A stretch of DNA of 64,000 bases, taken from contig NZ_JAIUMC010000008.1 in NCBI RefSeq assembly GCF_022565775.1, positions 1-64,000 on the forward strand, written 5' to 3'. The notes under the pieces are model-generated. The model worked only from the letters and a program-made list of their open reading frames with translations, ran no database searches and was not told the origin of the DNA. The position numbers were made by a program, and so were the translations under genes. Shown here piece after piece: positions 1,226-45,529 of this stretch. This stretch comes from Natronospirillum sp. (GTDB lineage Bacteria > Pseudomonadota > Gammaproteobacteria > Pseudomonadales > Natronospirillaceae). How positions within the stretch are numbered: the stretch's first letter is position 1; each line of letters opens with the position of its first letter.

Positions 1226-1523
1226 AGTGTTGGTTAACCCATATTGCAGTAACGAGAATTGCCGCAACTACTGACAAACATGAAAAAGCCAGAAATGCCA
1301 ATTTTATAATACCTCCGTGAACTTTGTACGCGTACACGGAATGCATAAAGAAGGCAATCATGAAGGCAAGAAATGGAAATGGTATAAAAAATGCCCATGC
1401 GGCCTCATCAAAAGATGGTCTAGCTGCCCTTAAGTAAAACAAAACAACTGCAATAAAAATTGCTAAAGCAATAGTTATCCAAAGCCATTTAGCCTGTTTT
1501 CTTCTATATCCATAAATTACCAT
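1212..1523 (-). CDS. Small three-helix membrane protein, candidate immunity partner of the RHS protein
   Basis: This 103-residue protein is almost entirely hydrophobic, with membrane segments at roughly residues 12-30, 42-64 and 72-96. It matches no family I recognise. Its ATG overlaps the last codons of the RHS gene (7 bases shared), so the two are very likely translationally coupled. The gene is clearly AT-richer than the YD-repeat DNA upstream and shares that composition with the RHS tip. A small variable gene placed directly behind an RHS tip is usually an immunity gene. If so, its membrane nature would suggest that the tip acts at a membrane. No direct evidence of function exists in the sequence. 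Confidence 0.65.
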   Translation of the reverse strand: MVIYGYRRKQAKWLWITIALAIFIAVVLFYLRAARPSFDEAAWAFFIPFPFLAFMIAFFMHSVYAYKVHGGIIKLAFLAFSCLSVVAAILVTAIWVNQHLGSL

Positions 1524-4500
1524 GCTATACCCACCGTATATGTGCCACCAAACCCTAGTTTTGCTCCCATTTCTTTATTTGGGCTGAGCGTATTGTATAG
1601 GCTTCCGCTTTCTGTAAAGTCAGCAGATAAGTTGCCATCACAGGTTATGCCAGAAGTTATCCCAGTTTGACCGAACCAGCCACCTGCTATTGGACCAAAA
1701 GATCCACCAGCCCAACCTTGAAAACCAGTGTAAGCTTCAAGACCATCGTACTGTTGTCCATTATTGGGTGTCGGAAAAGAGCCCTGAGGATTATATGAAA
1801 TTCCTCCTCCAAGACCAAAGCCAGCACCTACGGTAAAAAACCATTTATCGTTACTTCTACCGAAAGTTATATTACCTCCCTTGCCGATAAATGCATTTAC
1901 TCTTATGCTCCATAAACCATTTATGTCCACATAGTTTATGGGATCTCCATAAGCATAAACATAATGATTCAACCCACCTTTAAATCCAATCGGATCCTTG
2001 GTCGTCCACCTTCCCACTTCAGGGTCATAATCCCGCGCCCCAAACCTCACCAATCCGGTATCACGGTCATAAATACCACCGGCATAGCCGAAGGGCTGGA
2101 AGCCGGGGTTGGTGTCTTGGGTGACATTGCCCCAGGCGTCGTAGTCGAGGAGCTGGGCGATGTCGCCGGTCTGGGCGTCGATGACCTGGCGTACGCTGCC
2201 GAGGTGGTCGCTGATGAGGCGGTAGCGGTTGCCGCCCTTGATCATGTAGCTGGGCACGTGGCCCTTGTCGCCATAGACAAAGCGGGCAATTACGTTGTTG
2301 TTGCCGTCCAGTTCTGCGACGGGGTTAAGCTGCCCCTGATACAGGAAGCCCTGTTCCAGTTCGCCATCGCGTTTTTTGCCCACGCGCCGATTCTGGCCGT
2401 CGATCACATACTCGATCTTGGTGCCATCGGGCAGGGTGACCTGGCGCAGGTTGGAGAAGGCGTCATAGTCGTACAGTGTGGTGTCGCCGGTGACGGTGTC
2501 GGTCTTCCGGGTCAGTTCGCCGTTGGCGGTATAGCGGTACTCATGGTCGCCATACTGGATAAGTCGGTCCTGGGCGTCGTACTGGGCGATCTGGGTACCG
2601 TTCTCATGGGTCCGGTTGCCATTGTCGTCATATTGCCAGGAGCCGACCACTTCGCCGTTCCGGATGACCTGATCCAGCCGGTCGTTCTGGTCATAGCGGT
2701 ACTGGTACTCGACCGTGGTGCCGTTGACGGTCTCTGTTTTGCCGGTAATGCGGCCGGCGTCGTCCCGCTGCAGGCTGTAATGGAACACGGATGAACCGGA
2801 GTGGCTGGCGCTGTAGGCCGACAGTTCGCCCAGGTCATTGTAGCTGAGGCTGGTGTCGAGGTTGTCCAGACTGGTGCCGGTCAGCAGCGCATTGCCAGAG
2901 TGGTACTGGAGGCTCAGGTCGCCGGCTTCCGTTACCTGGCTGTCCTCATTGTATTGCCAGCTCAGGGTGTCGCCATTGATCGACTGGCTGATCGGTTCGA
3001 AGTAGTGGTTGTACTCGTAACCCAGGGCGCCTTCTATGGTGCCGCTCCAGTCGGTGCCGGTGAGCAGGAAGCCGTCATACTCATAGTCGATGTGCTGGCC
3101 ACCCGGGGCGGTCAGGCGTTTCAGTTGCCCGCTGTGGATGGGGTCGTCGGCGCCGAAGTACTCATACAGATAGCTGCCCGTGTCCAGCGATATGGCTTCC
3201 AGCAGGCCGCTGGTGTCGCCATAGCCCAGGTTGATACTGGCGCCGTCCGGGCGAATCTTCTCGGTCAGTTGCCGATCCAGATTGTAGATATAGCGTGTGG
3301 TCGGGTGGTCAGCTCCCATCGGGTCTTCGGTCGCCAGATCATTGGCCTGTGGCGGCCGATAGCGCTCGATGTCTTCCCGTGAGGTGTAGTAGAAGCGATG
3401 GCGTTCGCCGGTACCCAGCGTGATTTCGGTAAGCTGGCCTAGCGCATCATAGTCATAGTGCACCTGGCTGCCGTCCGGATTGAGCTGAGACGTCACCCGC
3501 CCCACGGCATCGTTGGTCAGGTTGACCGACTGGCCGAGGGCATTGGTGACCCGGTTCAGATAACCGAAGTGGTCATAGTCGAACTCCACCGAGCGCTCGC
3601 CATGGGTACCGCGGTCGATACGGGTGGGGCGGCCGCGATCGTCATAGTGATAGCGGATGTCGGTCAGGTTGCCGGCCTGGGCGCGGTCCAGCAGGCCTTC
3701 CTCATTGAGCCACTGGGTGAGGCTGCGGCCTTCGGGGCTGGTGTGGGTCCAGGTGAGCTCGGAGGCATCGTAGGTAGAGACGCTTTCCCGGTCGTTCACC
3801 GTGCTCAGGGTCGTCAGGGTGTTGTGACTCAACTGATCGTTCTCGTCATCCAGCGATGCGCTGCGCTCGGTGGTGGCCTCGAGGGTAAGGCCACTGGGGG
3901 TTTCGATACGTTCGGACGAGGGCACGGGGGACTGCATGCCGAAACGCGGGTCCGGGGTATAACTGCGGCTGATCTGGGTGCCATCCGGCCGGGTGATGTC
4001 GGTACCGGCATCGGTATGAATCCGTTCGGTCCGGCTGCCATCGGGTGATTCATTGATGTAGATGCGCTCGTCGGTGCTGCTTCGCTGCACGGTGAATTGC
4101 GATACCCGCCCTTCGCCACTGATCATGTCCGTGCGGTAGCCGTTGCTAAGTTCGGTTCGCTGAATGGTCCAGCCGCCGCCGTCGGGTGCCTCGTCCTGTA
4201 TCAGACGGCCGTTCTCGTCATAGTGAAAGCGGTTGGCGTGGTTGTTCGGCGTCTCGAACCGGGTCAGCAGGCCATCCGATGTGTACTCCATCGACCAGCG
4301 CTCACTGGCCGGGTTGCTCAGACTCACCAGGTGGCCGTTGTGATCCAAAGTCAGCTCCGTGCGCTGACCCTCCGGTGCCACAATGGCGGTGGCAGAGCCG
4401 TCGGACATACGTTCGATCTGCGTGGTGTTGTCGTGCTGGTCGGTCACGCTGATCAGCAGGTCATTGTCGTCATACTCGAAGGTGTAGAGGGCAACGCCAG

Positions 4501-7500
4501 TGGTGGTATCCGTGGTGCGAATGTGGCGGTTGGTACTGTCGAAATGGAAGAGGCGGGTGCCGTCTTTGGAGGGGATTTGAGTCTCATTCTCTGCATTTGG
4601 AATCGCCAGCGGGAGTCGAACTAGGCGTATACGATGATTTTGTGTATCTGCCGTGTAGAGATTGCCTTCGCCATCCAGAGCAACTCTATAGGGGAAATTG
4701 AGTTCGGCTTGGCTGGCTAGTCCACCATCGCCAGTGAAGCCTTGGTTGCCATCACCAGCCAAAGTGTGAATGACACCATCTGGACCTATCCAGCGTACGC
4801 GATTGTTACCTGTATCTGCTATGTAGAGATTGCCGCCACCTGAGGAGACCCCCCATGGTACATTCAGAGCAGCATCTGTTGCGCGCTCACCATCGCCGGA
4901 AAAGCCCCGGCTTCCATTACCCGCAAATGTCTCTATGATGCCATCTTGACTGATCCGACGAATTCGGTTGTTCTCCGAATCCGCGATGTATATGTTGCCC
5001 AATCTGTCAAGTTCGATACCAGTTGGGCTGTTCAACTGAGCCTCTGTTGCCGGGCCACCGTCACCGGAATAGCCACCGCCAAATCCTGAACCTGCTACTG
5101 TTTCTATATTGCCTTCCGAGTCTACTCGGCGAATACGATGACTGCTGTAATTCACAATGTAGAGATTGCCCGCGGTGTCCAAGGCTATATCTACTGGATT
5201 ATTAAGCCGTGCCTGCGTGGCTGGCCCCCCATCTCCGGAATTGCCAACGACGCCATCACCAGCCACGGTTTCAATAACACCGTCGACGCCGACCCTGCGA
5301 ACGCGATGGCTATGAGTGTCTGCGATGTAGAGATTTCCGAGATTATCTAGGGCAATCCCGTGAGGGTAATTCAATCGAGCCTGAATAGCCGGGCCCCCAT
5401 CGCCGGAAAAGAATCCGTTTTGATTTCCAACACCCCCTGAGCCAGCTACAGTCTCGATCATGCCATTTGGGCTTACCCTGCGGACGCGGTGGTTCACAGT
5501 ATCAGCTATAAATAGATTTCCAGTTTGATCGACTACTGCCCCAATTGGGCTATTCAGTTGAGCTTGAGTGGCAAAGTCGCCGTCTCCGGTGAACCCCTGC
5601 CCTATCCCAGTAATGGTATCGATCACACTACCAACGTTGGATTGCTGTTCGCCATTCCCCATTAGAAGCTTGCCGCGCTTGGAATCAAACATGTGGTGAA
5701 CATCTAGGGACCATGCGCCAACTGTATCTGGTCTCACAGGCAAGGAACCCGTCAGTTGGAATTGCTGGCTCTGGTCAAGCACCATTGACTGGCAGTCACT
5801 GCGAGTGCCGACTGCCTCACCAGTATCGCCGAATTGAGCCCAAGCCTGACTGAAGTCAGAGCGGGCACTATAGTAAACACAGGGGTAGTAATGGCTGATG
5901 GTAATGTGGGCATCATGGTCCCCTCGCACCTGACGTCCAAAACCATCTCGTCCATCCCACTCGAATCGGTACTTTTGATTTGGGGCGGCACTAAAATATT
6001 CTCTAAAATGCTGCCCGGCGACGCGGATATCAAGCCGTATTTTTTCTAGGCTGGGGGGGACACTCGGCCCGCTGACGGCTATGTCGGCGACATTGTTCTT
6101 GTAGCCGGGTGTTCTGTCGCTGCGATAGACCAGCTCAAACGGCGTGCCGGCTACGGGCAGGCTTTCGCCCAGGGTCTGGCGCTGGGGGCTGATGACACAG
6201 CCGGGGCACTCGTTTTCTTCATCCGTGTTGTCGGGCTGGTAGAGGTTGTTGGTTTCCGGTGTGGGCACATTCGGCCGCTCGGCATCCAGCGGCGGGCCAT
6301 AGGGCCAGTTGCAGTCCCAGGGGGTGAAGTGGTTGACGGGGGTGCGCCAGAGGGTCTTGCCGGCGTCATATAGATCGGCCAGCTTTTCCTGTTCTGCCGT
6401 ATCAATACCCAGGGCGGCCAGTTCTTCTTCGGTGGCGGGGGTGCCGTCGCCTGTTACATCCAGTATGGCCAGATCCGATTCGATGCTCAGAATCTCGATC
6501 ACGCGGCCGTTGTCGCCGGCTTTCCAGACGGCATCTTCATAGTCGTAGTAGCCGGCGGGGACGATTTCTCCGGTGGGAAAGTCCAGGAAGTTGTCCACAT
6601 AAAGCGGAACCGGTTGATCAAAGTCGACCCGATTGGAGCCGGCAGCGATGGCTTCATCGACACTGAGTTCCACGGCATAGGTATAGGCGCTGGTAGGCGG
6701 CAGTTCGCCGGGCATGGCTTCAAAGCCATTGTCGCCCACCGTGTATTCGGTGGCTCGGACATTCAGTTCGGTCAGGGCCTGGCTGCTGCCATCCGGCAGG
6801 GTCATGCTGGCCTGGGTGCCTTCGGGGAACAACAGGGTGGCCTGACGGGTGCCGTCGGCGTCGGTTTGCGGGCTGCCCTGGGCGACCTGCAGCGGCTGGC
6901 CGTTGCCCAGTTCAACGGTGGTGACCTCAGGGTCCAGCGGGATCATGACGATGTCGTCGGCAAAGTCGAAGTCGTTCCACTGAGGTTCGACGGCACGCTG
7001 GATCGGCAGGTAGCCGTCTTTCTCGTAGTGGACGATCAGCCGCCCTCCGCCATTGACCACCAGATCAAAGGCGCCGTCGGCCCGGCTGAGTGTGCTGCCG
7101 AGTTGCGGTTGCCTATGAATGCTAACCGTGACGCCATGCAACGGGTCGTTGTTGCGGTCGAGTACCCGGCCGCGCACCACGGCGACCCGGTCTTCATCGA
7201 GGCTGTCCGGGTTCAGGTCTTTCTGAATCGGGGTGTCGGCAGAGAACAGGAATTCGACCTGCTCGAAAAAGCCGCCACCACCTCCGGCGGGGATTTCCGG
7301 GGCGATGGTGGCGGGGTCGGGAGGCAGGTCGGAGAGGTCCGGGCCGGAGTCTGTGTCGTCTCCTGAGTCGGAGCCGCCTTCGCTACCTTGAGAGCCGCCG
7401 GAGCTGTCATCCGGGGAGGATTCCGATGAATCGGAAGTATCGCTGGAGGCACTTGTTGAGCTGCCGCTTTCGCAGCCCCAGAGAACAAGCATTGCAAAGA

Positions 7501-7525
7501 TGAGCGTCAGGAGACGTATCGGCAT
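1517..7525 (-). CDS. Giant RHS/YD-repeat lipoprotein with NHL propeller (teneurin-like architecture)
   Basis: I start this 2002-residue protein at ATG 7525 (AAGGA upstream), which exposes a lipoprotein signal ending LVLWGC with Cys18 as lipid anchor. Next come a Ser/Asp/Gly linker (19-75), a carboxypeptidase-regulatory/transthyretin-like domain (about 113-185), a region containing VNHFTPWDCNWPYGPP, six NHL-type repeats (about 640-970, with motifs such as GDGGPATQARLN and NLYIADT..HRVRRV), then a long YD/RHS shell (about 985-1830). The RHS core ends near residue 1872 in YGDPINYVDINGLW. This resembles the usual pre-toxin motif, but Ile replaces Pro in DPxGL. The last 130 residues are glycine-rich and match no known toxin. 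The NHL segment and the tip have lower GC than the YD part, which indicates mosaic assembly. The protein is probably surface-exposed. Its role (toxin delivery or adhesion) is inferred. Confidence 0.9.
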   Translation of the reverse strand: MPIRLLTLIFAMLVLWGCESGSSTSASSDTSDSSESSPDDSSGGSQGSEGGSDSGDDTDSGPDLSDLPPDPATIAPEIPAGGGGGFFEQVEFLFSADTPIQKDLNPDSLDEDRVAVVRGRVLDRNNDPLHGVTVSIHRQPQLGSTLSRADGAFDLVVNGGGRLIVHYEKDGYLPIQRAVEPQWNDFDFADDIVMIPLDPEVTTVELGNGQPLQVAQGSPQTDADGTRQATLLFPEGTQASMTLPDGSSQALTELNVRATEYTVGDNGFEAMPGELPPTSAYTYAVELSVDEAIAAGSNRVDFDQPVPLYVDNFLDFPTGEIVPAGYYDYEDAVWKAGDNGRVIEILSIESDLAILDVTGDGTPATEEELAALGIDTAEQEKLADLYDAGKTLWRTPVNHFTPWDCNWPYGPPLDAERPNVPTPETNNLYQPDNTDEENECPGCVISPQRQTLGESLPVAGTPFELVYRSDRTPGYKNNVADIAVSGPSVPPSLEKIRLDIRVAGQHFREYFSAAPNQKYRFEWDGRDGFGRQVRGDHDAHITISHYYPCVYYSARSDFSQAWAQFGDTGEAVGTRSDCQSMVLDQSQQFQLTGSLPVRPDTVGAWSLDVHHMFDSKRGKLLMGNGEQQSNVGSVIDTITGIGQGFTGDGDFATQAQLNSPIGAVVDQTGNLFIADTVNHRVRRVSPNGMIETVAGSGGVGNQNGFFSGDGGPAIQARLNYPHGIALDNLGNLYIADTHSHRVRRVGVDGVIETVAGDGVVGNSGDGGPATQARLNNPVDIALDTAGNLYIVNYSSHRIRRVDSEGNIETVAGSGFGGGYSGDGGPATEAQLNSPTGIELDRLGNIYIADSENNRIRRISQDGIIETFAGNGSRGFSGDGERATDAALNVPWGVSSGGGNLYIADTGNNRVRWIGPDGVIHTLAGDGNQGFTGDGGLASQAELNFPYRVALDGEGNLYTADTQNHRIRLVRLPLAIPNAENETQIPSKDGTRLFHFDSTNRHIRTTDTTTGVALYTFEYDDNDLLISVTDQHDNTTQIERMSDGSATAIVAPEGQRTELTLDHNGHLVSLSNPASERWSMEYTSDGLLTRFETPNNHANRFHYDENGRLIQDEAPDGGGWTIQRTELSNGYRTDMISGEGRVSQFTVQRSSTDERIYINESPDGSRTERIHTDAGTDITRPDGTQISRSYTPDPRFGMQSPVPSSERIETPSGLTLEATTERSASLDDENDQLSHNTLTTLSTVNDRESVSTYDASELTWTHTSPEGRSLTQWLNEEGLLDRAQAGNLTDIRYHYDDRGRPTRIDRGTHGERSVEFDYDHFGYLNRVTNALGQSVNLTNDAVGRVTSQLNPDGSQVHYDYDALGQLTEITLGTGERHRFYYTSREDIERYRPPQANDLATEDPMGADHPTTRYIYNLDRQLTEKIRPDGASINLGYGDTSGLLEAISLDTGSYLYEYFGADDPIHSGQLKRLTAPGGQHIDYEYDGFLLTGTDWSGTIEGALGYEYNHYFEPISQSINGDTLSWQYNEDSQVTEAGDLSLQYHSGNALLTGTSLDNLDTSLSYNDLGELSAYSASHSGSSVFHYSLQRDDAGRITGKTETVNGTTVEYQYRYDQNDRLDQVIRNGEVVGSWQYDDNGNRTHENGTQIAQYDAQDRLIQYGDHEYRYTANGELTRKTDTVTGDTTLYDYDAFSNLRQVTLPDGTKIEYVIDGQNRRVGKKRDGELEQGFLYQGQLNPVAELDGNNNVIARFVYGDKGHVPSYMIKGGNRYRLISDHLGSVRQVIDAQTGDIAQLLDYDAWGNVTQDTNPGFQPFGYAGGIYDRDTGLVRFGARDYDPEVGRWTTKDPIGFKGGLNHYVYAYGDPINYVDINGLWSIRVNAFIGKGGNITFGRSNDKWFFTVGAGFGLGGGISYNPQGSFPTPNNGQQYDGLEAYTGFQGWAGGSFGPIAGGWFGQTGITSGITCDGNLSADFTESGSLYNTLSPNKEMGAKLGFGGTYTVGIAW

Positions 7526-7599
7526 GACCTGAAGTCCTTTTCCACAGAGGTGCCTGGCTGTGCCGGCCGGCGGGTTTGTTTCGGAGCCGGCGGTTCTGC

Positions 7600-7618
7600 C
7601 TGTGCATTCCATGCACAG
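7600..7618. promoter_or_regulatory. Operator-like inverted repeat upstream of the RHS gene
   Basis: CTGTGCAT-TCC-ATGCACAG is a perfect 8-bp inverted repeat with a 3-base centre, 75-93 bases upstream of the RHS start codon. It could be a regulator binding site. No regulator gene lies beside it. Confidence 0.4.
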
Positions 7619-35860: not shown

Positions 35861-35873
35861 CGCTACCCACCCT

Positions 35874-35891
35874 CCGACCAACGTCTAATGG
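35874..35891 (+). promoter_or_regulatory. Candidate CrbR site upstream of acs
   Basis: CCGACCAACGTCTAATGG shares GACCAA.GTC.AAT with sites at 49090 and 53180. The centre (35880.5) is 31.5 bases before the -10-like TATAAC at 35912, placing it near -43, typical of an activator touching RNA polymerase. The assignment to CrbR is an inference from the linked genes. Confidence 0.6.
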
Positions 35892-35911
35892 GCGCTTGCC
35901 GACAGACAGGC

Positions 35912-35917
35912 TATAAC
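35912..35917 (+). promoter_or_regulatory. Candidate -10 element of the acs promoter
   Basis: TATAAC preceded by GGC. No good -35 hexamer is present at the proper distance, where the palindrome lies instead, consistent with an activator-dependent promoter. It predicts a leader of about 38 bases before ATG 35962. Confidence 0.5.
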
Positions 35918-35961
35918 GTCAACACCACAATAATTACGACGTTACAGAAAGGGAGCCTCCC

Positions 35962-37929
35962 ATGTCAGTGACTGTACCCATGCCCAACCCCAGGGGCCGC
36001 CGTACCCGCTACAACCCCGACAGCTATGCCGAACTCTATGCCGCCTCGCTGGACAACCCGGAAGGGTTCTGGTCCGCCCAGGGCGAGCGCATAGACTGGT
36101 TCCAGCCGTATTCGAAGGTCAAGCATACGTCCTTCGACCCGCACAATGTCGACATTCGCTGGTACGAAGACGGCACCCTGAATGCCTGCTACAACTGCCT
36201 GGACCGGCACCTGCCCGCCAACCGCAACAAGGTCGCTTTCATCTGGGAAGGCGACAGTCCGGATGTGCAGGCCACCCTGACCTATGGCCAATTGCATGAG
36301 CAGGTCTGTCGCTTTGCCAACAGCCTCAAGTCACTGGGTGTCACCAAGGGCGACCGGGTGGCCATCTACATGCCCATGGTGCCCGAGGCCGCCATCGCCA
36401 TGCTCGCCTGTGCCCGTATCGGTGCCGTGCATTCGGTGATTTTTGCCGGGTTCTCACCCAATGCGATAGCTGATCGGGTGAACGATTGTTCCGCCAGGGT
36501 GGTGATTACCAGTGATGAGGGCAAGCGCGGTGGCCATCGTATTCCACTCAAGGCCAATGTGGATCAGGCACTGAAGAATGACGCCTGCCCGAGTGTCACC
36601 GACGTGGTGGTACTGCGCCACACCGGCGCAGACGTGAGCTGGACAGAAGGGAGAGACCTCGATTGGAAGACACTGGTCGAGGCTGCCGATGTGCAGTGCC
36701 CGGCCGAAGAAATGAACGCCGAAGATCCACTGTTCATCCTCTACACCTCCGGCTCGACCGGCAAACCCAAGGGCGTGCTGCACACCACTGGCGGGTATAT
36801 GGTGTATGCCTCGCTGACCCATGAAGCCATCTTCGATCTGCAGGATGATGACATCTACTGGTGTGCTGCCGATGTGGGCTGGATTACCGGCCACACCTAT
36901 ATTGTCTATGGTCCGCTGGCCAACGGGACGACCAGTGTCCTTTTCGAAGGTGTCCCGACGTCTCCGGGGCCGGGCCGTGTGGGCGAGATTATCGACAAGC
37001 ATGGCGTGACCATTCTCTACACGGCACCGACGCTGGTGCGGGCCCTGATGGCCAAGGGTGAAGAATCAACGGGTACCAGTAACCGTTCCACACTGCGCCT
37101 GCTGGGCAGTGTCGGCGAACCGATCAATCCGGAAGCCTGGAACTGGTACTTCGAAAAGATGGGCAACGGCCAGTCGCCCATCGTCGACACCTGGTGGCAG
37201 ACTGAAACCGGCGGCGCGCTGATGACCCCACTGCCCGGCGTTTGTGACATGAAACCGGGCTCCGCCATGCTGCCCTTCTTCGGCGTGCGCCCGGCGCTGG
37301 TGGACAACGAAGGCAACGAACTGACTGAACCCGGCGAGGTTCAGGGTAATCTGGTACTGCTGGATTCCTGGCCCGGCCAGGCCCGAACGCTCTGGGGCGA
37401 CCATGAGCGCTTCGTGCAGACCTATTTCAGCAGCTATCCCGGCATGTATTTCACCGGTGACGGGGCACGGTGCGATGCCGATGGCCACTACTGGATCACC
37501 GGCCGGGTAGATGACGTGCTGAACGTCTCCGGTCATCGTCTGGGCACCGCCGAAATCGAGAGTGCACTGGTGGCCCATGAAGCCGTGGCTGAGGCGGCGG
37601 TTGTCGGGTATCCACATGACCTCAAGGGGCAGGGCATCTACGTCTATGTCACCCTGAGCGAGGGCGTCGAGCCGAGCGCTGCGCTGGAAAAAGAGCTGCG
37701 CCAATGGGTGCGCACCGAGCTGAGCCCGATTGCCACACCGGATGTGATCCAGTGGGCCGGCGGCCTGCCCAAGACCCGATCCGGCAAGATCATGCGGCGC
37801 ATCTTGCGCAAGATCGCCACCAACGATTATGGCAGCCTGGGGGATACCTCTACGCTGGCTGACCCCTCTGTGGTAGAGTCGCTGATTCAGGAACACGAAC
37901 GGCGACAGACCACCGAGGCTGATGGCTAG
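35962..37929 (+). CDS. acs: Acetyl-CoA synthetase (AMP-forming)
   Basis: Acs activates acetate to acetyl-CoA through acetyl-AMP. The 655-residue protein has the family signatures [44 protein letters not shown] and the C-terminal [17 protein letters not shown], whose first lysine of the GKIMRR stretch is the residue acetylated in known Acs proteins. A good GGGAG site precedes ATG 35962. The stop overlaps the start of the LuxR-type regulator by 8 bases, so the pair is coupled. A candidate activator site lies upstream. Confidence 0.96.
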
Positions 37930-38569
37930 ATTCCTTGTAGCAGATGATCACCCCCTGTTTCGCGAGGCCCTTCAGGGGGCGCTCGCGAAGCAGTTTGCTG
38001 CCCTGGAATTGCGCGAAGCCGACAGCCTGGAAGCCACGCTGGCGGCGCTGGAAGAGGACGACGATGTCGACCTGCTGCTGCTCGATCTGCATATGCCGGG
38101 CAGTGGTGATCTCTATGGCCTGATCCGGGTCCGTGAAGACTATCCCCTGTTGCCCGTCGCGATCATTTCAGGCAGCGAAGACCCGGCCATCATGGCCCGT
38201 TGCATCGGCTTCGGCGCACTGGGCTTCATCCCCAAATCTCTGCCCTCAAACCAGATCGCGGAAGCCATTCAAAGCATTCTCGACGGCGATACCTGGGTAC
38301 CTGAAGGCGTGGCAGACCGGCTCGCCGGGCTGTCCCGGGAAGATCAGGATCTGGCCCACAAGGTGGCTGAACTGACGCCCCAGCAATACCGGGTGCTCTG
38401 CCATTTGCACGAAGGTCTGCTGAACAAGCAGATCGCCTATGCGCTGGGCATCACCGAAGCGACGGTCAAGGCCCATATCACCGCCATCTTCCGCAAGCTC
38501 GATATCAACAACCGGACTCAGGCCGTGCTGATGGCCGAGCGGCTGCGGCTCACGCCTTCCGAAACCTGA
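37922..38569 (+). CDS. crbR: LuxR-family response regulator, CrbR/ErdR type
   Basis: The protein has 215 residues. The receiver domain (about 1-120) carries the acceptor Asp in [12 protein letters not shown], and the C-terminal LuxR helix-turn-helix (about 150-210) reads [36 protein letters not shown]. Regulators of this type next to acs are CrbR (Vibrio) or ErdR/AgmR (Pseudomonas), which activate acs when the SLC5-fused kinase CrbS/MxtR signals. That kinase gene lies at 45534-49010. The gene overlaps the acs stop and is probably made from the acs transcript, which would give positive feedback. Confidence 0.88.
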
Positions 38570-38602: not shown

Positions 38603-39475
38603 TCAGGGCCTATACCAGAGCTCAGCTCTATCCAAAGGGGTGTCTGCTGGCAGCAGTGGATTGTCCAGTTCCAGTATCACTCTATCGTCCAGACGAGCCT
38701 GTGCCAGATAGTGCTCATAGAACCCGAGGAAAAGGGCTTCCAGTGAGCCGTCGGCCAGGGCCGTCTCCAGGCCGTTCTCTATCGCTTCTGCCAGTGCATC
38801 ATTGTCGGGCGCCACAAAATAGTAGACTGCCGCCGGATAATGCAAGGCCAGATGGGGGCTGACCACGATGCCGTCCTCGGCATACGCCTCGGCTTCGGCC
38901 CAGATTTCGAGTACCGACCGGGGAAAGTAGTCGAAACGATTCTGCAACAGCATGGGGAAAAGCTGGCGGTAGTCGCCGCCGGTAATAACGGACAGGCTGT
39001 TATAGGCCAGGATCTCTGTATCCGGCCAACCATAACCCTGGCCGGCCTGCAGGTTCTGCAGGTCACGTAGGGTTTCGACGCTGGCCAGACTCTCGATGCG
39101 CGCCTCGGTAACCAGCGGCAACCTGATACCAATCAGCCCGCGGTATACCGGGAACCGGATGGGACGGGCGACGGCTTCGCGGTCTTCGGAGGTCATGGTC
39201 CACATGACATCAAGTCGCTCCCCGGCAATCACTTCCTGCAAGGCTCTCTGCTGCTGCATGCGCGTGGTGACACCGACCATCGTATGATCAAGGCCGGATT
39301 TCTCCAGCGCCAGATAGAGCAACTCAATGGCATAGTCGGAGCGCTGATCGCCGGTGGTGGAGGCCAGGTAGCGCACACTGACGGACTCGCCATAGGCTTT
39401 GGCGGACAGCAGAATGGCCAGGCAAAGGGTCAGCAGCCATTGGTTGCGCATGGCCAGTTGGGGGTGCAGCAGCAT
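38603..39475 (-). CDS. Periplasmic solute-binding-protein-like protein
   Basis: The protein has 290 residues. A signal peptide (about 10-30, LLTLCLAILLSAKAYG) leads into a type-3 solute-binding fold (YAIELLYLALEKSGL, VIAGERLDVMWTMTSEDREAVARPIRFPVYRGLIGIRL). It lacks an adjacent permease or ATPase, so it may serve a distant transporter or act as a signal receptor. I use ATG 39475, which has GAGG upstream. ATG 39451 would give a shorter signal peptide. Ligand unknown. Confidence 0.8.
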   Translation of the reverse strand: MLLHPQLAMRNQWLLTLCLAILLSAKAYGESVSVRYLASTTGDQRSDYAIELLYLALEKSGLDHTMVGVTTRMQQQRALQEVIAGERLDVMWTMTSEDREAVARPIRFPVYRGLIGIRLPLVTEARIESLASVETLRDLQNLQAGQGYGWPDTEILAYNSLSVITGGDYRQLFPMLLQNRFDYFPRSVLEIWAEAEAYAEDGIVVSPHLALHYPAAVYYFVAPDNDALAEAIENGLETALADGSLEALFLGFYEHYLAQARLDDRVILELDNPLLPADTPLDRAELWYRP

Positions 39476-39704
39476 TCGATATTACCTCTGCCATGTTACA
39501 GCTGACAGTATAGCTGCTGATTATCCATCTGGCTGGCTTGGCCTGATACCTATCGGGTCACAATTTTCTTAATTTCGCGACATGAGTGACTGGAGCCCGC
39601 AGAACTGCCAAGTACTTCACACTTGCCCGAACGCCGGCCTGACAAAGGCTGTCTTTTGCTTTAATCATGGCGGCAGACAATGAACAGAACAGGGAGTCAG
39701 GGCC

Positions 39705-42407
39705 ATGAATCCGGGAAAGTCTCCTGTGGCGCCTCAACACCGCAACGTCACGCCGCTCCGTATAGTGTTGCCAATGGCCAGCCTGCTGCTGGCGGGCTGC
39801 ATTTTCGGGAGCTCCGGTGGCTCTTCCAGCAATGATTCTGATGACGGCAGCGGCACAGCTTCCTCAAGCCTGGGTCAGGGTGATGCGGAAATGATCACAG
39901 ACGTCATTACGCGAACCTTCGAAGGGCCTGGGACGCTGCGCTTTTCCTGGCGCCTTGATGCCGATGACGCCGACCCGTCACCTAACATGGCCGTGCACGT
40001 GAACGGATCAGAAGTGTCCAGAGTTGAAGGGTCCTCCGACTGGCAAACCCGAACCTTTGTCGTGCCTGAGGGCGAAGCTGAAATCGAGTGGCACAGTGAA
40101 CATGTGCGTTGGGATGACAGCGAAGACCGTGCTCAGGGGCACTATGCCCGGCTGAACGAGGTCGAATTCTCCGCCGGGGTGGTCGAACGCCCGGCGCAGG
40201 TTTTCCCGTCCGGTGCCCGCTACTGGTCCGAGCTGTATCCTTCCGATGCGCCCAATCAGGATATCATGATCGGTCCCAACCAGGTGGTGATCATGGACGA
40301 GCCCGAGGTCAGTATCCGGTCTCTGATGATTCACGGACAATTGTTGTTCCAGGACCAGGACGCGCATCTGGAAACCCACTGGATTCATGTGCACGGTTCC
40401 AATGCGAAACTGGAGCTGGGCACGCGGGAGCGCCCGCTGGCCAGCGATATTCGAATCACTTTCAATGACCCGCGCCGCGTCTATCGCGAATTGCTGGAAG
40501 AAGACGAGGACGCAGGCCTGCCGCGTGGGCAGGCACTGTGGCATGTGGATGCTGACGGCGAGAGAGAGGCCCGTACCGACTTTGGCAACTACAAAACCTT
40601 GATGGTGATGGGCGGCGGAACCCTGTCGGTGTACAGCGAAAGCGCCATGAAGCGAACCTGGACGCAGCTTGACGAGCCCGCAGAGCCCGGTGATACCAGC
40701 CTGCTGTTGACCAGTTCCACCGGCTGGCAGCCGGGAGACCGCATTGCGCTGGCGCCTACCGGTTTCATTGCCACCGAAGCGGAAGATTTCACCATCGAGT
40801 CGGTACAGGGGCGCCGGATCTATCTGGACCGTGCCGTGACCTATCCGCGCAGTGGCCATGTCGAATACTACCGTGATGGCAGCGACGAGCTGCGCGAACT
40901 GGACCTGCGCGCCGAAGTGGCGCTGCTGAGTCGCAATATCGTGTTCGAAGGTGATGACAGTTCCGTAGACCATAATTACGGCGTGCACACCATGTATATG
41001 TATCCGTCTACAGTGAACATCTCCGGCCTGGAGTTGCGTCATTGTGGTCAGCAGGGCAGTCAGGGCCGATATTGTTCCCACTGGCACCGGCCCTATGTGG
41101 ACAACATGGAAGCCATCTATGCCAGGGCTGAATTCAAGGCTATGTGGGATCGCTATGAGGGGCCGGGCAAACCGGACGAGATGCCCAGTACCAATGTAGA
41201 GCGCTGGCGCTTGTATACAGTGAACAACAACGGCAGAAACATGTATGTCCAACTTGGCGAAGACGACCGTCAGCAGATGGATCAGTGGCTGATCGACTCC
41301 ATCGACGCCACGGGCGACTATATCCGCAACAGCAGTGTCCACTCCTCGTTTCAGCGGGCAGTGAACCTGCATGGCACGACGGGCGTGGTGGTCGACAACA
41401 ATGTCGGTTATGACATCAGCAATCATGCGTTCGTGTTTGCAGAGGACGGCACCGAGTTCGGCAATACCCTGTCACGCAATCTGGCCATGCTGGTGCACAA
41501 TGTGCTCGACCCGGAGAAGACAGCGTTTTTGCGGCGGCAGATTCGGGTGCCGGGCACCGACCAGCGGGCCAGTCCCTGTTTTGAGCGCCGGGCGGTCACC
41601 ATTCCCCAGACCAGCTCCTGTCAGGAAGAAGACAAGGTGGGTGCTTTCTGGGGCGAAAATCCTTTCAATACGCTGCGCGGCAATGTGGCGGCTGGGGTGA
41701 CCGAGCGTGGCACCGGCTTCTTCAACAGTGCTGCCTTTGTTGGTCGAGCCCGTTGGGACGACGAGCGTGGCCTGTATCGGATGTACAGTGGCAACAGCAA
41801 TCAGAACCAGGCCAGTGCCATGTGGCCGCGCGACTGGGAAGACTGGGAGATAGTGGCGCCCGCGCCGATGATTTTTGAGGACAACAGGGCCCACACCATT
41901 TCCTGGGTTGATGGCGAGGTGGCCCGTGGTCCGGCCGATGGCAACATCTATCCGCCGCAGACGCGCGGCATGGGTTTCTTCTTCCGCGGTTTCCGCGGCG
42001 ACGGTGCCGCCATTGGTCCGGGAGATTTCGTGCTGCGCAATATTCAGGCCTATGGTCTGCAGGACCACGGCGTATGGATCGAGAACGATCAGATCGTCGA
42101 TGGCTGTGTGATTGCCAGCAGCTACAAGCGGGCCATTGTGCTGACCGGCAGCAATGACAATTCGGGTGTGCGCAATTGTGCGCTGGTCGGTGATGCTGAA
42201 TCACCGCAATTGCAGCGCAGTGGCAATGATGTGCGCAATATGTTTTACGCCTTTGCGCCCAACTACGGTCGATCCTCGGATAGTTTCCACCCGTTCATCC
42301 ATGACACCGTGATCTACAATCATGCTGGGGGGCTGCTGACACCATCGGGCCCGGGTATGAATGAGGACAGTCTGATGGATGTGCGCAATGTCGATGTGGT
42401 GGAGTGA
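39705..42407 (+). CDS. G8-domain, beta-helix surface lipoprotein
   Basis: The protein has 900 residues. A lipoprotein signal ends LLLAGC (Cys32), followed by a Ser/Asp/Gly linker. A beta-sandwich follows (about 60-155), then a G8-like domain (about 180-260) with regularly spaced turns (IMIGPNQVVIMDE, SLMIHGQLLF, IHVHGSNAKLELG), and a long right-handed beta-helix-like region (about 290-880: VVVDNNVGYDISNHAFVFAED, DHGVWIENDQIVDGCVIA). G8 plus beta-helix occurs in the vertebrate CEMIP/TMEM2 and PKHD1 proteins and in uncharacterised bacterial proteins. Polysaccharide binding or cleavage is plausible but unproven. It overlaps the next lipoprotein gene. Confidence 0.8.
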   Translation: MNPGKSPVAPQHRNVTPLRIVLPMASLLLAGCIFGSSGGSSSNDSDDGSGTASSSLGQGDAEMITDVITRTFEGPGTLRFSWRLDADDADPSPNMAVHVNGSEVSRVEGSSDWQTRTFVVPEGEAEIEWHSEHVRWDDSEDRAQGHYARLNEVEFSAGVVERPAQVFPSGARYWSELYPSDAPNQDIMIGPNQVVIMDEPEVSIRSLMIHGQLLFQDQDAHLETHWIHVHGSNAKLELGTRERPLASDIRITFNDPRRVYRELLEEDEDAGLPRGQALWHVDADGEREARTDFGNYKTLMVMGGGTLSVYSESAMKRTWTQLDEPAEPGDTSLLLTSSTGWQPGDRIALAPTGFIATEAEDFTIESVQGRRIYLDRAVTYPRSGHVEYYRDGSDELRELDLRAEVALLSRNIVFEGDDSSVDHNYGVHTMYMYPSTVNISGLELRHCGQQGSQGRYCSHWHRPYVDNMEAIYARAEFKAMWDRYEGPGKPDEMPSTNVERWRLYTVNNNGRNMYVQLGEDDRQQMDQWLIDSIDATGDYIRNSSVHSSFQRAVNLHGTTGVVVDNNVGYDISNHAFVFAEDGTEFGNTLSRNLAMLVHNVLDPEKTAFLRRQIRVPGTDQRASPCFERRAVTIPQTSSCQEEDKVGAFWGENPFNTLRGNVAAGVTERGTGFFNSAAFVGRARWDDERGLYRMYSGNSNQNQASAMWPRDWEDWEIVAPAPMIFEDNRAHTISWVDGEVARGPADGNIYPPQTRGMGFFFRGFRGDGAAIGPGDFVLRNIQAYGLQDHGVWIENDQIVDGCVIASSYKRAIVLTGSNDNSGVRNCALVGDAESPQLQRSGNDVRNMFYAFAPNYGRSSDSFHPFIHDTVIYNHAGGLLTPSGPGMNEDSLMDVRNVDVVE

Positions 42408-43173
42408 CCTGCGAGTCATCGCTGCTCTGACGCTTGGCCTGCTGGTCGCCGGGTGTGAAAAGCCGCAGCAATCTGATGCCCGCCAGGCCGCTATTGGTGC
42501 ATACGACTATCCGGGCTCCGTGCTCTGGTTTTCGGCCGATCATGATGACATCCAGGCGCCGGGCGACAGAATCACGGCGGGACGGGAAAACGCACTTCTG
42601 CCCCCGACCCATATCCAGTTTGACCCGGAACACCTGTCCTATGAGCCCGGCAAGCGCGGTCAGGCTGCTTGCCTGCAGTACGGTGATTTGCGCTTTGTCA
42701 TGAATTCGGAAGAACTGGAAGAACCCCTGCAATACACGGTGCTGACCTTTGCCTTCTGGATCAATCCCGGGTTGCCGGTGGACAGCACGCGCCGACTCTT
42801 CTCGTCGGATTTTACGCCACAGTCCGGGCTCAGAGTTCTGGCGAATCCGTCGCAACTGGATGTACTGCTCTGGGATCGTCTCCAGGACTGGCACGTGCAT
42901 CTGAAAGGGCCTGCCTTGCCGGCCACCGAATGGAGTCATGTCGCCCTGACCATCAATGCGTCAGATTCCGGAGCGCGACACGATGGCGTGCAGCTTTACG
43001 TTAACGGCAAACGCACCGATCAGGCCGATGCGGTCGTGCTGACCGATGTGAATCCCGCCTACCGACTGCATGGGCATCCCGGTGAGGACACCCACTGTGT
43101 TGACGACTGGCTGCTCTATCTGGACCCCCTGACAGAGCAGAGCCTGCGCGAAGTGATGGATCACTCCATGTAG
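42379..43173 (+). CDS. LamG/concanavalin-like lipoprotein
   Basis: The protein has 264 residues. A lipoprotein signal ends LLVAGC, followed by a single beta-jelly-roll of LamG type (TVLTFAFWINPGLP, WSHVALTINASD, LYVNGKRTDQADAV, DDWLLYLDPLTEQ). Such domains bind sugars or proteins. Its start lies 29 bases inside the G8 gene, so the two are cotranslated and probably act at the same surface. Starts at 42388 or 42394 are also possible. The 3' end overlaps the convergent small exported gene by 13 bases. Confidence 0.75.
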   Translation: MCAMSMWWSDLRVIAALTLGLLVAGCEKPQQSDARQAAIGAYDYPGSVLWFSADHDDIQAPGDRITAGRENALLPPTHIQFDPEHLSYEPGKRGQAACLQYGDLRFVMNSEELEEPLQYTVLTFAFWINPGLPVDSTRRLFSSDFTPQSGLRVLANPSQLDVLLWDRLQDWHVHLKGPALPATEWSHVALTINASDSGARHDGVQLYVNGKRTDQADAVVLTDVNPAYRLHGHPGEDTHCVDDWLLYLDPLTEQSLREVMDHSM

Positions 43174-43556
43174 CGCAGCCCCATCAGGCCTTCCGTTCGG
43201 CTATTGGTGACCTCGAAGCGCACCCGCTGAACCTCGCCGTTGCTTGGCCGGGTGGCTTCGATACGATAGTAGCCGTCCGGCAAGTCAACTCTCAGCCAGG
43301 GACCGACATGGTCGGTGTCCAGCAGAACATTACCCCCGTCCACTTCCGATATCCTCACTTCAAGACCGGTCAGATAGGAACCATTGCGCTCGAAAAACTC
43401 GAAATGGGTATTATGCCCACTTGGCGCGTCAGCGCGCGATTCAGCGCCCACACCTCCTGACCAGTAATCAACGGCCTGGGCATGGCCCAGCAGGCCGAAT
43501 ACCAGTATCAGCAGGGTCAATGCGAAAGGCTTTAATTTGCCGCGGGGGTGTGTCAT
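43161..43556 (-). CDS. Small exported beta-rich protein of unknown function
   Basis: The protein has 131 residues. A signal peptide (about 8-28, FALTLLILVFGLLGHAQA) is followed by a compact beta domain (LRVDLPDGYYRIEATRPSNGEVQRVRFEV) that resembles carboxypeptidase-regulatory or other transthyretin-like folds. It could be a partner of the neighbouring surface lipoproteins. Its 3' end overlaps the LamG gene. Confidence 0.65.
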   Translation of the reverse strand: MTHPRGKLKPFALTLLILVFGLLGHAQAVDYWSGGVGAESRADAPSGHNTHFEFFERNGSYLTGLEVRISEVDGGNVLLDTDHVGPWLRVDLPDGYYRIEATRPSNGEVQRVRFEVTNSRTEGLMGLRYME

Positions 43557-43632
43557 GTTCTGCTCCTTGAGTCACGCTGTGGATGAAACTCCCACAGTTA
43601 TTATAGTCGTCCTGCAGCGAGTTCAAGTATCC

Positions 43633-44379
43633 ATGACCAAACCCGTGTTTCAGCAACTCGATCGCCAGCCCTCTGTGATCGGTGATATCAGCTTGCGGCG
43701 GCGCCGTTTCCCGGCTACCGGAGAGCGCGATATCTTTGAAGTCAAACTGGGCGACGAGTTCCTGATGTCCAGTCTGTTTGTCGATGCCGAAGTGGCACTG
43801 GCCAACCTGGGGCTCAAGGCACTCTCCGGTGATCAGTTGGATGTGGTGGTTGGCGGTCTGGGGCTGGGTTATACCGCCCGAGCCGTTTTGCGCTGCGAAC
43901 GTGTGGCCAGCCTGCGTGTGGTGGAGTACCTGCAGCCGGTCATCGACTGGCACCGGCAGGGACTGGTACCGCTGGGCCCTGAAATAACCGGCGATGCGCG
44001 CTGCGCGCTGGTCTGTGGTGACTTCTTCGCCCTGGCCACTGAGCCCGAGTGCTCGTTCGACGAGCAACGACCCGATCACCGGTACGACGCCATTCTGCTC
44101 GATATCGACCACACGCCCGAAGCTCTGCTGGACCCGGCCAATGCCCGGTTCTACGGGCCGGCTGGCCTGCGTGCCATGACCCGTCAGCTCAAGCCGGAGG
44201 GCGTATTCGGGCTCTGGTCCGATGCGGTGGCAGACGAGCGCTTTGTGGACGGTCTGCGCGCCGTCTTCGACGAGATACAGGACCATGAGGTCCGCTTCGC
44301 CAATCCCTTTACCGGTGGCGAGGCCAGCAATCGAATTTATATTGCTCAGGGAACACTGAAAAATGAAGGAGACACCTAA
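43633..44379 (+). CDS. Spermidine synthase-like protein
   Basis: The protein has 248 residues from ATG 43633. The fold is a Rossmann aminopropyltransferase-like domain with VVVGGLGLGYTARAVL, VRVVEYLQPVIDWH-type strand and YDAILLDIDHTPEALLDPANARFYG. The usual catalytic YD.II.D...P.GP pattern is altered, so it may not make spermidine. Its last 17 bases overlap the monooxygenase start, indicating an operon. Confidence 0.78.
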   Translation: MTKPVFQQLDRQPSVIGDISLRRRRFPATGERDIFEVKLGDEFLMSSLFVDAEVALANLGLKALSGDQLDVVVGGLGLGYTARAVLRCERVASLRVVEYLQPVIDWHRQGLVPLGPEITGDARCALVCGDFFALATEPECSFDEQRPDHRYDAILLDIDHTPEALLDPANARFYGPAGLRAMTRQLKPEGVFGLWSDAVADERFVDGLRAVFDEIQDHEVRFANPFTGGEASNRIYIAQGTLKNEGDT

Positions 44380-45529
44380 GGCTGTCATTGTTGGCGCTGG
44401 TATCAGCGGACTGGTCTGCGCGATTGCGCTGCAGCGTCAGAACATCTCTGTAAGGGTGCTGGAACAGGCGGACACACTGGCTCCGGTCGGAGCCGGCCTG
44501 TCGCTCTGGCCCAATGCGCTGCACGCATTGGGGGCGCTGGGGCTCAGTGATGCGGTCACTGCAGCGGGCGCTCGTCTGCGCCGCGGTGAAATACGGCAGG
44601 CCGATGGTCGGGTACTCAGCAGCATGGACACAGCTGGTCTGGCGGCCAGAACCGGCATGCCCTGCGTGATGATCCATCGTGCAGCGCTGCATGGTCTGCT
44701 GCTGCAGGCATTGGCGCCGGACACGGTGAGTACCGGACAGACTGCCGAGTCAGTGGTGGCCGCCGGCGGCGAGGGGACGCCCGCCCGGCTGCGTCTGCAC
44801 AGTGGCGAGGAACTGGAGGCAGACATCCTGATCGCGGCCGACGGGGCGAATTCCCGCATCCGCCGGCAGCTCTGGCCGGCTAGCGATCTGGTCTATCGAG
44901 GGTACACGGCCTGGCGAGGCATCGTGCGGGCTCCGCACAGTGCCCGGCTCGGTGAGTCCGGCGAGAGCTGGGGCAGGGGCTGTCGGTTCGGCTGGTCGGC
45001 AGTGGATCACGAGCGCATCTACTGGTTTGCCACCGCCAACCAGCCCGCCGGAGAAACCGTCGGCGGAGAAGCGCGACTCAGTCGGTTGCAGACCCTGTTC
45101 GGTGACTGGCATGCCCCCATTCCCACCCTGCTGGAAGCCACGCCGGCCGAGGATATTCTGCAAAACGACATCCACGACCTGCCGCCATTGGCGAGCTGGC
45201 ACCGGGGCCGCACCGTATTGCTTGGCGATGCGGCGCACCCGACTACACCCAATCTCGGTCAGGGCGCCTGCATGGGCATTGAAAGCGCGCTGGTGCTGGC
45301 GCGTCAGTTGGACCGGCACACGTCTCCGGAGGCTGCCTTCAAGGCCTTCTTTCAGCAACGCCACAAGCGCGTGACCGGTGTCATGCTGCAGTCGCGCCGT
45401 ATCGGTGCAGCCGGTCAGTGGTCCTCGCCAGCAGCCTGCTGGCTGCGCAATCGACTGGCGTCGGTCATACCCAGTCGACTGTCCGAATGGCAACTGGACA
45501 GGCTGGTGCAAGGGTTCACATTGCCCTGA
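44363..45529 (+). CDS. FAD-dependent aromatic-ring monooxygenase (salicylate hydroxylase/UbiH-like)
   Basis: The protein has 388 residues with the class-A flavoprotein hydroxylase motifs: dinucleotide fold VIVGAGISGLVCAIAL, ADGANSRIRRQLW and LLGDAAHPTTPNLGQGACMGIE. Members hydroxylate aromatic or quinone precursors with NAD(P)H and oxygen. The substrate cannot be told. It overlaps the spermidine synthase-like gene and ends four bases before the convergent crbS gene. Confidence 0.88.
   Translation: MKETPKAVIVGAGISGLVCAIALQRQNISVRVLEQADTLAPVGAGLSLWPNALHALGALGLSDAVTAAGARLRRGEIRQADGRVLSSMDTAGLAARTGMPCVMIHRAALHGLLLQALAPDTVSTGQTAESVVAAGGEGTPARLRLHSGEELEADILIAADGANSRIRRQLWPASDLVYRGYTAWRGIVRAPHSARLGESGESWGRGCRFGWSAVDHERIYWFATANQPAGETVGGEARLSRLQTLFGDWHAPIPTLLEATPAEDILQNDIHDLPPLASWHRGRTVLLGDAAHPTTPNLGQGACMGIESALVLARQLDRHTSPEAAFKAFFQQRHKRVTGVMLQSRRIGAAGQWSSPAACWLRNRLASVIPSRLSEWQLDRLVQGFTLP

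Follow-up and report, generated by a model that had tools for sequence, protein, structure and literature searches.

Human TMEM2 (CEMIP2) is a transmembrane protein whose structure (8c6i) holds a G8 domain within a continuous right-handed beta-helix, while its relative CEMIP (HYBID, KIAA1199) carries a beta-helix of the Pfam family PF24606. In the consulted parts of three reports (PMC12254123, PMC10206443 and PMC10474455), both the enzymatic nature of TMEM2 and the location of an active site are under dispute. Bacterial G8 proteins are already known from annotation, and in a survey of mostly open-access literature we recognised neither a characterised bacterial G8 protein nor a proposed family-wide CEMIP/TMEM2 active site. 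Here we describe P0001, a predicted G8/CEMIP-type lipoprotein of 900 amino acids encoded at 39705..42407 (+) of a 64,000-nucleotide stretch of Natronospirillum sp. (contig NZ_JAIUMC010000008.1, positions 1 to 64,000; hereafter the window), with three histidines and one glutamate in its beta-helix that are invariant among its relatives and that we put forward as a candidate active site.

P0001 is a member of the G8/CEMIP beta-helix superfamily. It matches both Pfam domains, G8 (PF10162; E = 2e-16, 60.4 bits against a cut-off of 22.9; residues 178-322, 40236..40670 (+)) and CEMIP_beta-hel (PF24606; E = 7e-38, 130.9 bits against 27.3), the latter in a first stretch at 40977..41090 (+) and a main stretch at residues 535-682 (41307..41750 (+)). 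Its open reading frame (ORF) shares 29 bp with that of P0002, a 264-residue protein on the same strand (42379..43173 (+)) that matches Laminin_G_3 (LamG; PF13385; E = 1.9e-10, 41.5 bits against 27.6); all these matches lie above their cut-offs and are therefore not due to chance. From the translations, both N-termini can be read as signal peptides ending in a lipobox, L29-A-G-C32 in P0001 (LAGC, Cys32; 39789..39800 (+)) and the V-A-G-C26 region in P0002 (VAGC, Cys26; 42445..42456 (+)), which makes both predicted lipoproteins. A previous sequence-only reading of the window had described two overlapping lipoproteins of 900 and 264 residues with G8/beta-helix and LamG domains, and the ORFs, lipoboxes and Pfam matches bear this out. 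Neither protein had an NCBIfam match at E 1.

The kinship with vertebrate hyaluronan depolymerases claimed in that reading is likewise upheld, by Pfam, by sequence and by structure. TMEM2 is the single clear sequence relative of P0001 in the PDB (8c6i, E = 4.9e-21; the other row reached E 0.68), and a 35-row profile built from P0001 and 34 bacterial relatives matched 8c6i at 6.6e-128 across the G8 part and chain positions 340 to 942. The next entry in the profile search, a phage tail-tube chain (9n71), was far weaker (E 0.0034; structural match at Z 11.1 over 75 residues) and covers only a short stretch near residues 316-409. In an AlphaFold model of P0001, P0001 forms a right-handed beta-helix with the G8 domain, and TMEM2 ranked first both in Foldseek (1.3e-13) and in VIA-align (Z 24.0, root-mean-square deviation 3.9 Å, 473 residues aligned), followed in VIA-align by a row at Z 20.3 with 283 aligned residues; many of the rows at Z 14-20 are phage depolymerases or beta-helix enzymes that cleave polysaccharides as lyases or hydrolases. 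The model has a mean predicted local distance difference test (pLDDT) score of 56.3, with 446 of 900 residues below 50. It is good at 161-260 and 301-350 (blocks of 75 to 96), at 361-380 and 401-450, and also at 541-570 (80 to 87). Confidence is moderate at 451-470 (67, 52) and 571-600 (66, 81, 71), whereas the N-terminal end, 261-290, 465-534 and most of 599-900 are poor. Ahead of the G8 domain, the model shows a beta-sandwich (residues 63-160, 39891..40184 (+), block pLDDT 50 to 73) with only CBM35/GOLD-type matches at Z 7.8 or less, which may reflect merely a common arrangement.

P0001 and TMEM2 have the YxxHxH, HGT and ED motifs in common, but differ in what is attached to the shared core. 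TMEM2 carries a lectin-like (POMGNT1-type) insertion of about 173 chain residues between two matched stretches, where P0001 has only 21 residues between W319 and W341; P0001 in turn has a long segment after the HxH motif and a shorter C-terminus. As for the C-terminal beta-sandwich ‘domain X’ of metazoan CEMIP/TMEM2, P0001 ends early and its model past residue 599 is mostly of low confidence. With CEMIP, P0001 shares the name of the Pfam beta-helix family (PF24606). PL6 alginate lyase, K1 capsule lyase, GH87, GH110 and GH28 share the overall beta-helix fold (Z of about 14 to 19), but are only 7-14% identical to P0001. The catalytic residues of these lyases and hydrolases are not known to be those of the G8/CEMIP family.

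Conservation was assessed on frames matching a 13-row profile at E 1e-8 from fetched, partly overlapping loci, which gave 147 sequences and, under 90% identity, 121. Four residues, H459 and H461 (H459-W-H461, 41079..41087 (+)), H556 (41370..41372 (+)) and E580 (41442..41444 (+)), hereafter the tetrad, showed no substitution in any covered sequence: each histidine is conserved in 109 of 109 and the glutamate in 111 of 111. Y456 is equally invariant (109/109), and H428 (104/107), R455 (105/109), R551 (101/109) and H574 (102/110) nearly so. The core is complete in 105 of the 121 sequences; of the 16 lacking core columns, 13 run into the end of their locus and 3 come from split or broken frames. 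Among 11 representatives under 40% identity, chosen greedily from the fetched set, in which other phyla are under-sampled, the part from residue 160 to 720 is invariant at G211, G239, W341, D345, G448, Y456, H459, H461, H556, E580, N592 and, apart from one gap, N660, and the ionisable ones among them are D345, Y456 and the tetrad. The profile scan that supplied the loci used two peptide patterns, both of which exclude the tetrad. Y-x-x-H-x-H and the later His and Glu are also present in the printed stretches of Planctomyces and Ruegeria relatives. In human TMEM2 the tetrad corresponds to H550, H552, H585 and E608, as counted by eye in the sequence and profile alignments. The 8c6i construct is described as 23 vector residues followed by residue 106 (consulted parts of PMC10206443); the TMEM2 residue number is therefore the chain index plus 82, and the chain length of 1301 (23 + 1278) agrees. 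A pocket of acidic metal-binding residues had been expected from the sequence-only reading; a strongly conserved candidate site is present, but its invariant set consists mainly of three histidines and one glutamate.

On the P0001 model, DSSP assigns strands at 429-432, 456-461, 551-556 and 577-579, which we read, within the limits of the model, as each opening one of a series of consecutive turns. Since H461 and H556 close their strands and E580 lies just after the third, these three are taken to line up in register on neighbouring strands. H459 would point to the same side, two positions ahead of H461, and the tetrad would thereby occupy three consecutive strands. The third strand of P0001 has one extra residue, V577, a bulge. 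The positions flanking the tetrad are hydrophobic in nearly all of the 105 full-core sequences (458 in 104, 460 in 105, 553 in 103, 555 in 101 and 579 in 102), as expected if they face the core while the tetrad faces away, and the alternation supports the in-register arrangement for two strands, those with 458 and 460 and with 553 and 555.

From these observations we infer an enzymatic activity, an outward-facing active site formed by the tetrad, a lid, a partner and a surface location for P0001. As a surface depolymerase, P0001 would be anchored in the envelope as a lipoprotein and act on extracellular polysaccharide, for which the right-handed beta-helix would form the groove. H459, H461, H556 and E580, on three consecutive strands of one sheet and possibly with a metal, would form the catalytic centre, surrounded by Y456, the near-invariant R455, R551 and H428. 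The segment following H461 would probably act as a lid and determine substrate specificity, while the glycan would be held by the N-terminal beta-sandwich and possibly also by the LamG lipoprotein. Hyaluronan need not be the substrate. Besides the Pfam and TMEM2 matches and the invariance, this reading is favoured by the many polysaccharide-degrading enzymes among the structural matches, by the carbohydrate-binding-type fusions of three relatives described below and by one relative that sits among glycosyltransferase genes. That P0001 is an enzyme acting on polysaccharide and centred on the tetrad we regard as an even call. A set of three histidines and one glutamate is the ligand set of the cupin metal motif. 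More speculatively, one such beta-helix active site might be common to all G8/CEMIP proteins, bacterial ones as well as human CEMIP and TMEM2, which would then be metal-dependent, perhaps oxidative, polysaccharide depolymerases, an extension that we consider rather doubtful.

Several points weigh against an enzymatic centre at the tetrad. The alternation is imperfect, with hydrophobic residues also at 552 (98 of 105), at 576 (98) and 578 (99), which adjoin E580, and at 430 (102) and 432 (103) in the preceding turn. The geometry was derived from DSSP strands and alternation, not from coordinates, in a model whose mean pLDDT is 56, whose blocks at the site score 67 (451-460), 52 (461-470), 81 (551-560) and 66 (571-580), and whose insertion and most of residues 599-900 are poor. 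Collecting the sequences through their homology to the family biases them towards conserved motifs, and the invariance could have structural reasons. The gene is not embedded in a polysaccharide-utilisation gene set. TMEM2 itself is contested, as the consulted parts of PMC10206443 report no activity and those of PMC10474455 robust activity. The latter also describe TMEM2 as needing calcium, for which three histidines and a glutamate are not a typical site; the calcium requirement fits a metal in general, but not obviously a 3-His/1-Glu set.

The same residues might instead serve in binding. P0001 could be a non-enzymatic glycan-binding or adhesive lipoprotein whose beta-helix, together with LamG, holds cells to a polysaccharide matrix and whose invariant residues bind a sugar or a structural metal, an explanation that we judge somewhat unlikely. 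It would fit the TMEM2 ectodomain without hyaluronidase activity in the consulted parts of PMC10206443, the adjoining LamG lipoprotein, and the carbohydrate-binding-type domains carried by 3 of 12 untrimmed relatives. In these three the core is fused to a CBM5/12 (L034, with an additional CBM10 match below the cut-off), a malectin (L037, the same gene as L023) or an F5/8C domain (L033, with a Pfam match for the CEMIP helix and none for G8), all above cut-off; a further relative (L052) has a cadherin-like domain, and the rest of the 12 have none of these four. The gathering of several invariant ionisable residues in one place is, however, more typical of catalysis than of binding, and intrinsic TMEM2 activity is reported in the consulted parts of PMC10474455.

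Partly overlapping with the depolymerase proposal is a polysaccharide lyase or epimerase, in which Tyr456 and the histidines would supply the base and the acid for beta-elimination from a uronic acid polymer, with no redox metal involved. The invariant Tyr and His would suit such chemistry, and the fold matches PL6 alginate lyase (Z 19.4), K1 capsule lyase (17.1) and fucoidan lyase (15.2); a common fold shows no function, however, and glycoside hydrolases are among the matches too. CEMIP products are reportedly hydrolytic, which also counts against a lyase, and we hold this version to be unlikely.

Should the depolymerase proposal and a shared site prove true, the single Ni2+ listed alongside one Cl- in Table 1 of the TMEM2 structure report (PMC10206443, in part) may sit at H550/H552/H585/E608. 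The inactivating TMEM2 mutations described in the consulted parts of the literature lie in the lectin domain, which P0001 does not have; the ‘inactive’ mutants would then have hit a domain that the bacterial core lacks rather than this site, and the comparison suggests that the lectin domain mutated in the earlier ‘dead’ versions is apparently outside the shared core. Anchoring the family comparison in very divergent bacterial members makes four named residues testable in TMEM2/CEMIP and in the bacterial proteins alike.

Within the family, P0001 stands out by the segment that follows the HxH strand. H461 and R551 are separated by 89 residues in P0001 and by 20 (79 sequences), 21 (19), 23 (4), 28 (1) or 30 (1) in the 104 others, a difference of 59-69 residues. 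This long insertion lies within residues 462-537 (41088..41315 (+)); its position directly after the HxH strand and its partly helical, low-confidence prediction make a lid plausible, which would probably set substrate specificity. The closest of the 104 others is 42% identical to P0001 in the core. In a FastTree phylogeny of the 105 core sequences P0001 pairs with a protein from genome G038 (support 0.944) on long branches within a deep branch, and these two alone carry a cysteine at position 457 (2 of 109 covered). Annotated bacterial ‘G8 domain-containing proteins’, such as Croceibacterium WP_053833714.1 (L012), share the G8 domain, the CEMIP beta-helix and the tetrad with P0001 at about 30% identity, but have the 20-21 residues between H461 and R551 that are found in 98 of 105 sequences, not 89.

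Bacterial relatives of P0001 are common. A 13-row profile scan of genome contigs returned at least 592 stretches, 549 of them confirmed among the matches listed, and the best 80 of these 549 represent 78 distinct loci, by record title many Erythrobacter-type or gammaproteobacterial metagenome-assembled genomes and some acidobacterial ones. PF24606 matched in 7 of 369 genomes of the class, our own included, and in 2 of 14 control genomes at E 0.01, and a five-row profile in 12 of 390 genomes of the order. Searches with the P0001 protein found only remote relatives, in 3 of 398 genomes of the phylum and, among 96 relatives, in 2 genomes (both counts including its own). Among the 22 genomes of the family, only that of the window carries the G8 gene, and the same holds for P0002. 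Four plasmid records match P0001, none over 80% of the query, and a DNA-pattern search from P0001 alone gave 6 stretches in genome contigs, of which none was confirmed, and none in viral contigs. A phage origin of the locus was rejected, as PHROGs returned no match for P0001, P0002 or the proteins of the two flanking small genes.

The 78 loci contain 93 frames of at least 400 amino acids that match P0001, and tandem copies are therefore common; L118, L080, L091, L092 and L083 carry tandem G8/CEMIP genes, with up to three frames per locus. Their surroundings were surveyed with a crude frame-picking script that drops frames under 100 amino acids and oddly composed ones. Neighbouring genes vary, the top cluster occurring in at most 8 of 78 loci, and a polysaccharide-utilisation locus was rejected on this basis. 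Clusters of TonB receptors lie beside G8 genes in 7 and 5 of the 78 loci, and a TonB receptor separates the two G8 genes of a Croceibacterium plasmid. The Ruegeria relative, annotated as a PA14 protein, sits among glycosyltransferase genes. SnoaL and cytochrome c clusters occur in 5 loci each, and GMC oxidoreductase and pyrroloquinoline quinone (PQQ) dehydrogenase clusters in 4 each; the representatives of these clusters near canonical G8 genes are L059:5672-6223, L091:11578-12057, L123:408-2075 and L083:7656-9779. The oxidoreductase neighbours give a weak hint of redox chemistry.

Linkage of the G8 and LamG genes did not recur among 21 genomes (our own, the same-genus genome G001 and 19 others carrying a G8/CEMIP match), although the search turned up no close orthologue of the G8 protein. 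The sequence-only reading had named a lack of linkage in other genomes as grounds for refutation, and for the pair this is the outcome within the genomes covered. P0002 matched in 2 of the 21, and its only foreign match (genome G499, contig C33) lies on a different contig from the G8 matches of that genome (C81 and C72), and LamG as a fixed partner was rejected. LamG domains are common: PF13385 matches 5 of 14 control genomes and has a second match elsewhere in our own. Two small exported genes, P0004 (38603-39475 (-)) and P0003 (43161-43556 (-)), which have no Pfam family over cut-off and no NCBIfam match, flank the pair; both exist as described in the sequence-only reading, but both lie on the minus strand, and no support was obtained for placing them in the same surface system, as it had tentatively done. 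The P0004 homologue of G001 sits at the corresponding locus without the pair, and the P0003 homologue is on another contig (C23). A dedicated surface system made up of the pair and its flanking genes is thus very unlikely and, for the latter, largely refuted: the 29-bp ORF overlap and the lipoprotein nature of both pair members speak for it, but no linked LamG gene was found elsewhere among these genomes, and the flanking genes run in the other direction and occur in G001 without the pair.

The pair resembles an accessory insertion at a variable site. Contig C32 of G001 matches the window at 35866-38563, 38603-39356 (P0004) and 43642-44374 in conserved order, whereas the 4285 bp at 39357-43641 are represented by only 242 bp. 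An FAD (flavin adenine dinucleotide) monooxygenase gene at 44363-45529 is also missing in G001, where different genes occupy the interval from the LuxR-type regulator (37922-38569) to P0004.

A second animal-like surface protein is encoded elsewhere in the window, at 1520-7612 (-): a predicted lipoprotein of 2030 amino acids with teneurin architecture, matching TTR_TEN1-4 (1.6e-26), TEN_NHL, TEN_YD-shell (2.3e-33) and RHS repeats, with FN-plug below cut-off. The consulted parts of PMC13018210 portray teneurin-like proteins of bacteria as rare shells that bear toxins. Positions 1-2000, which adjoin the end of this gene, have a G+C content of 47%, against about 55-65% in the other 2-kb steps of the window.

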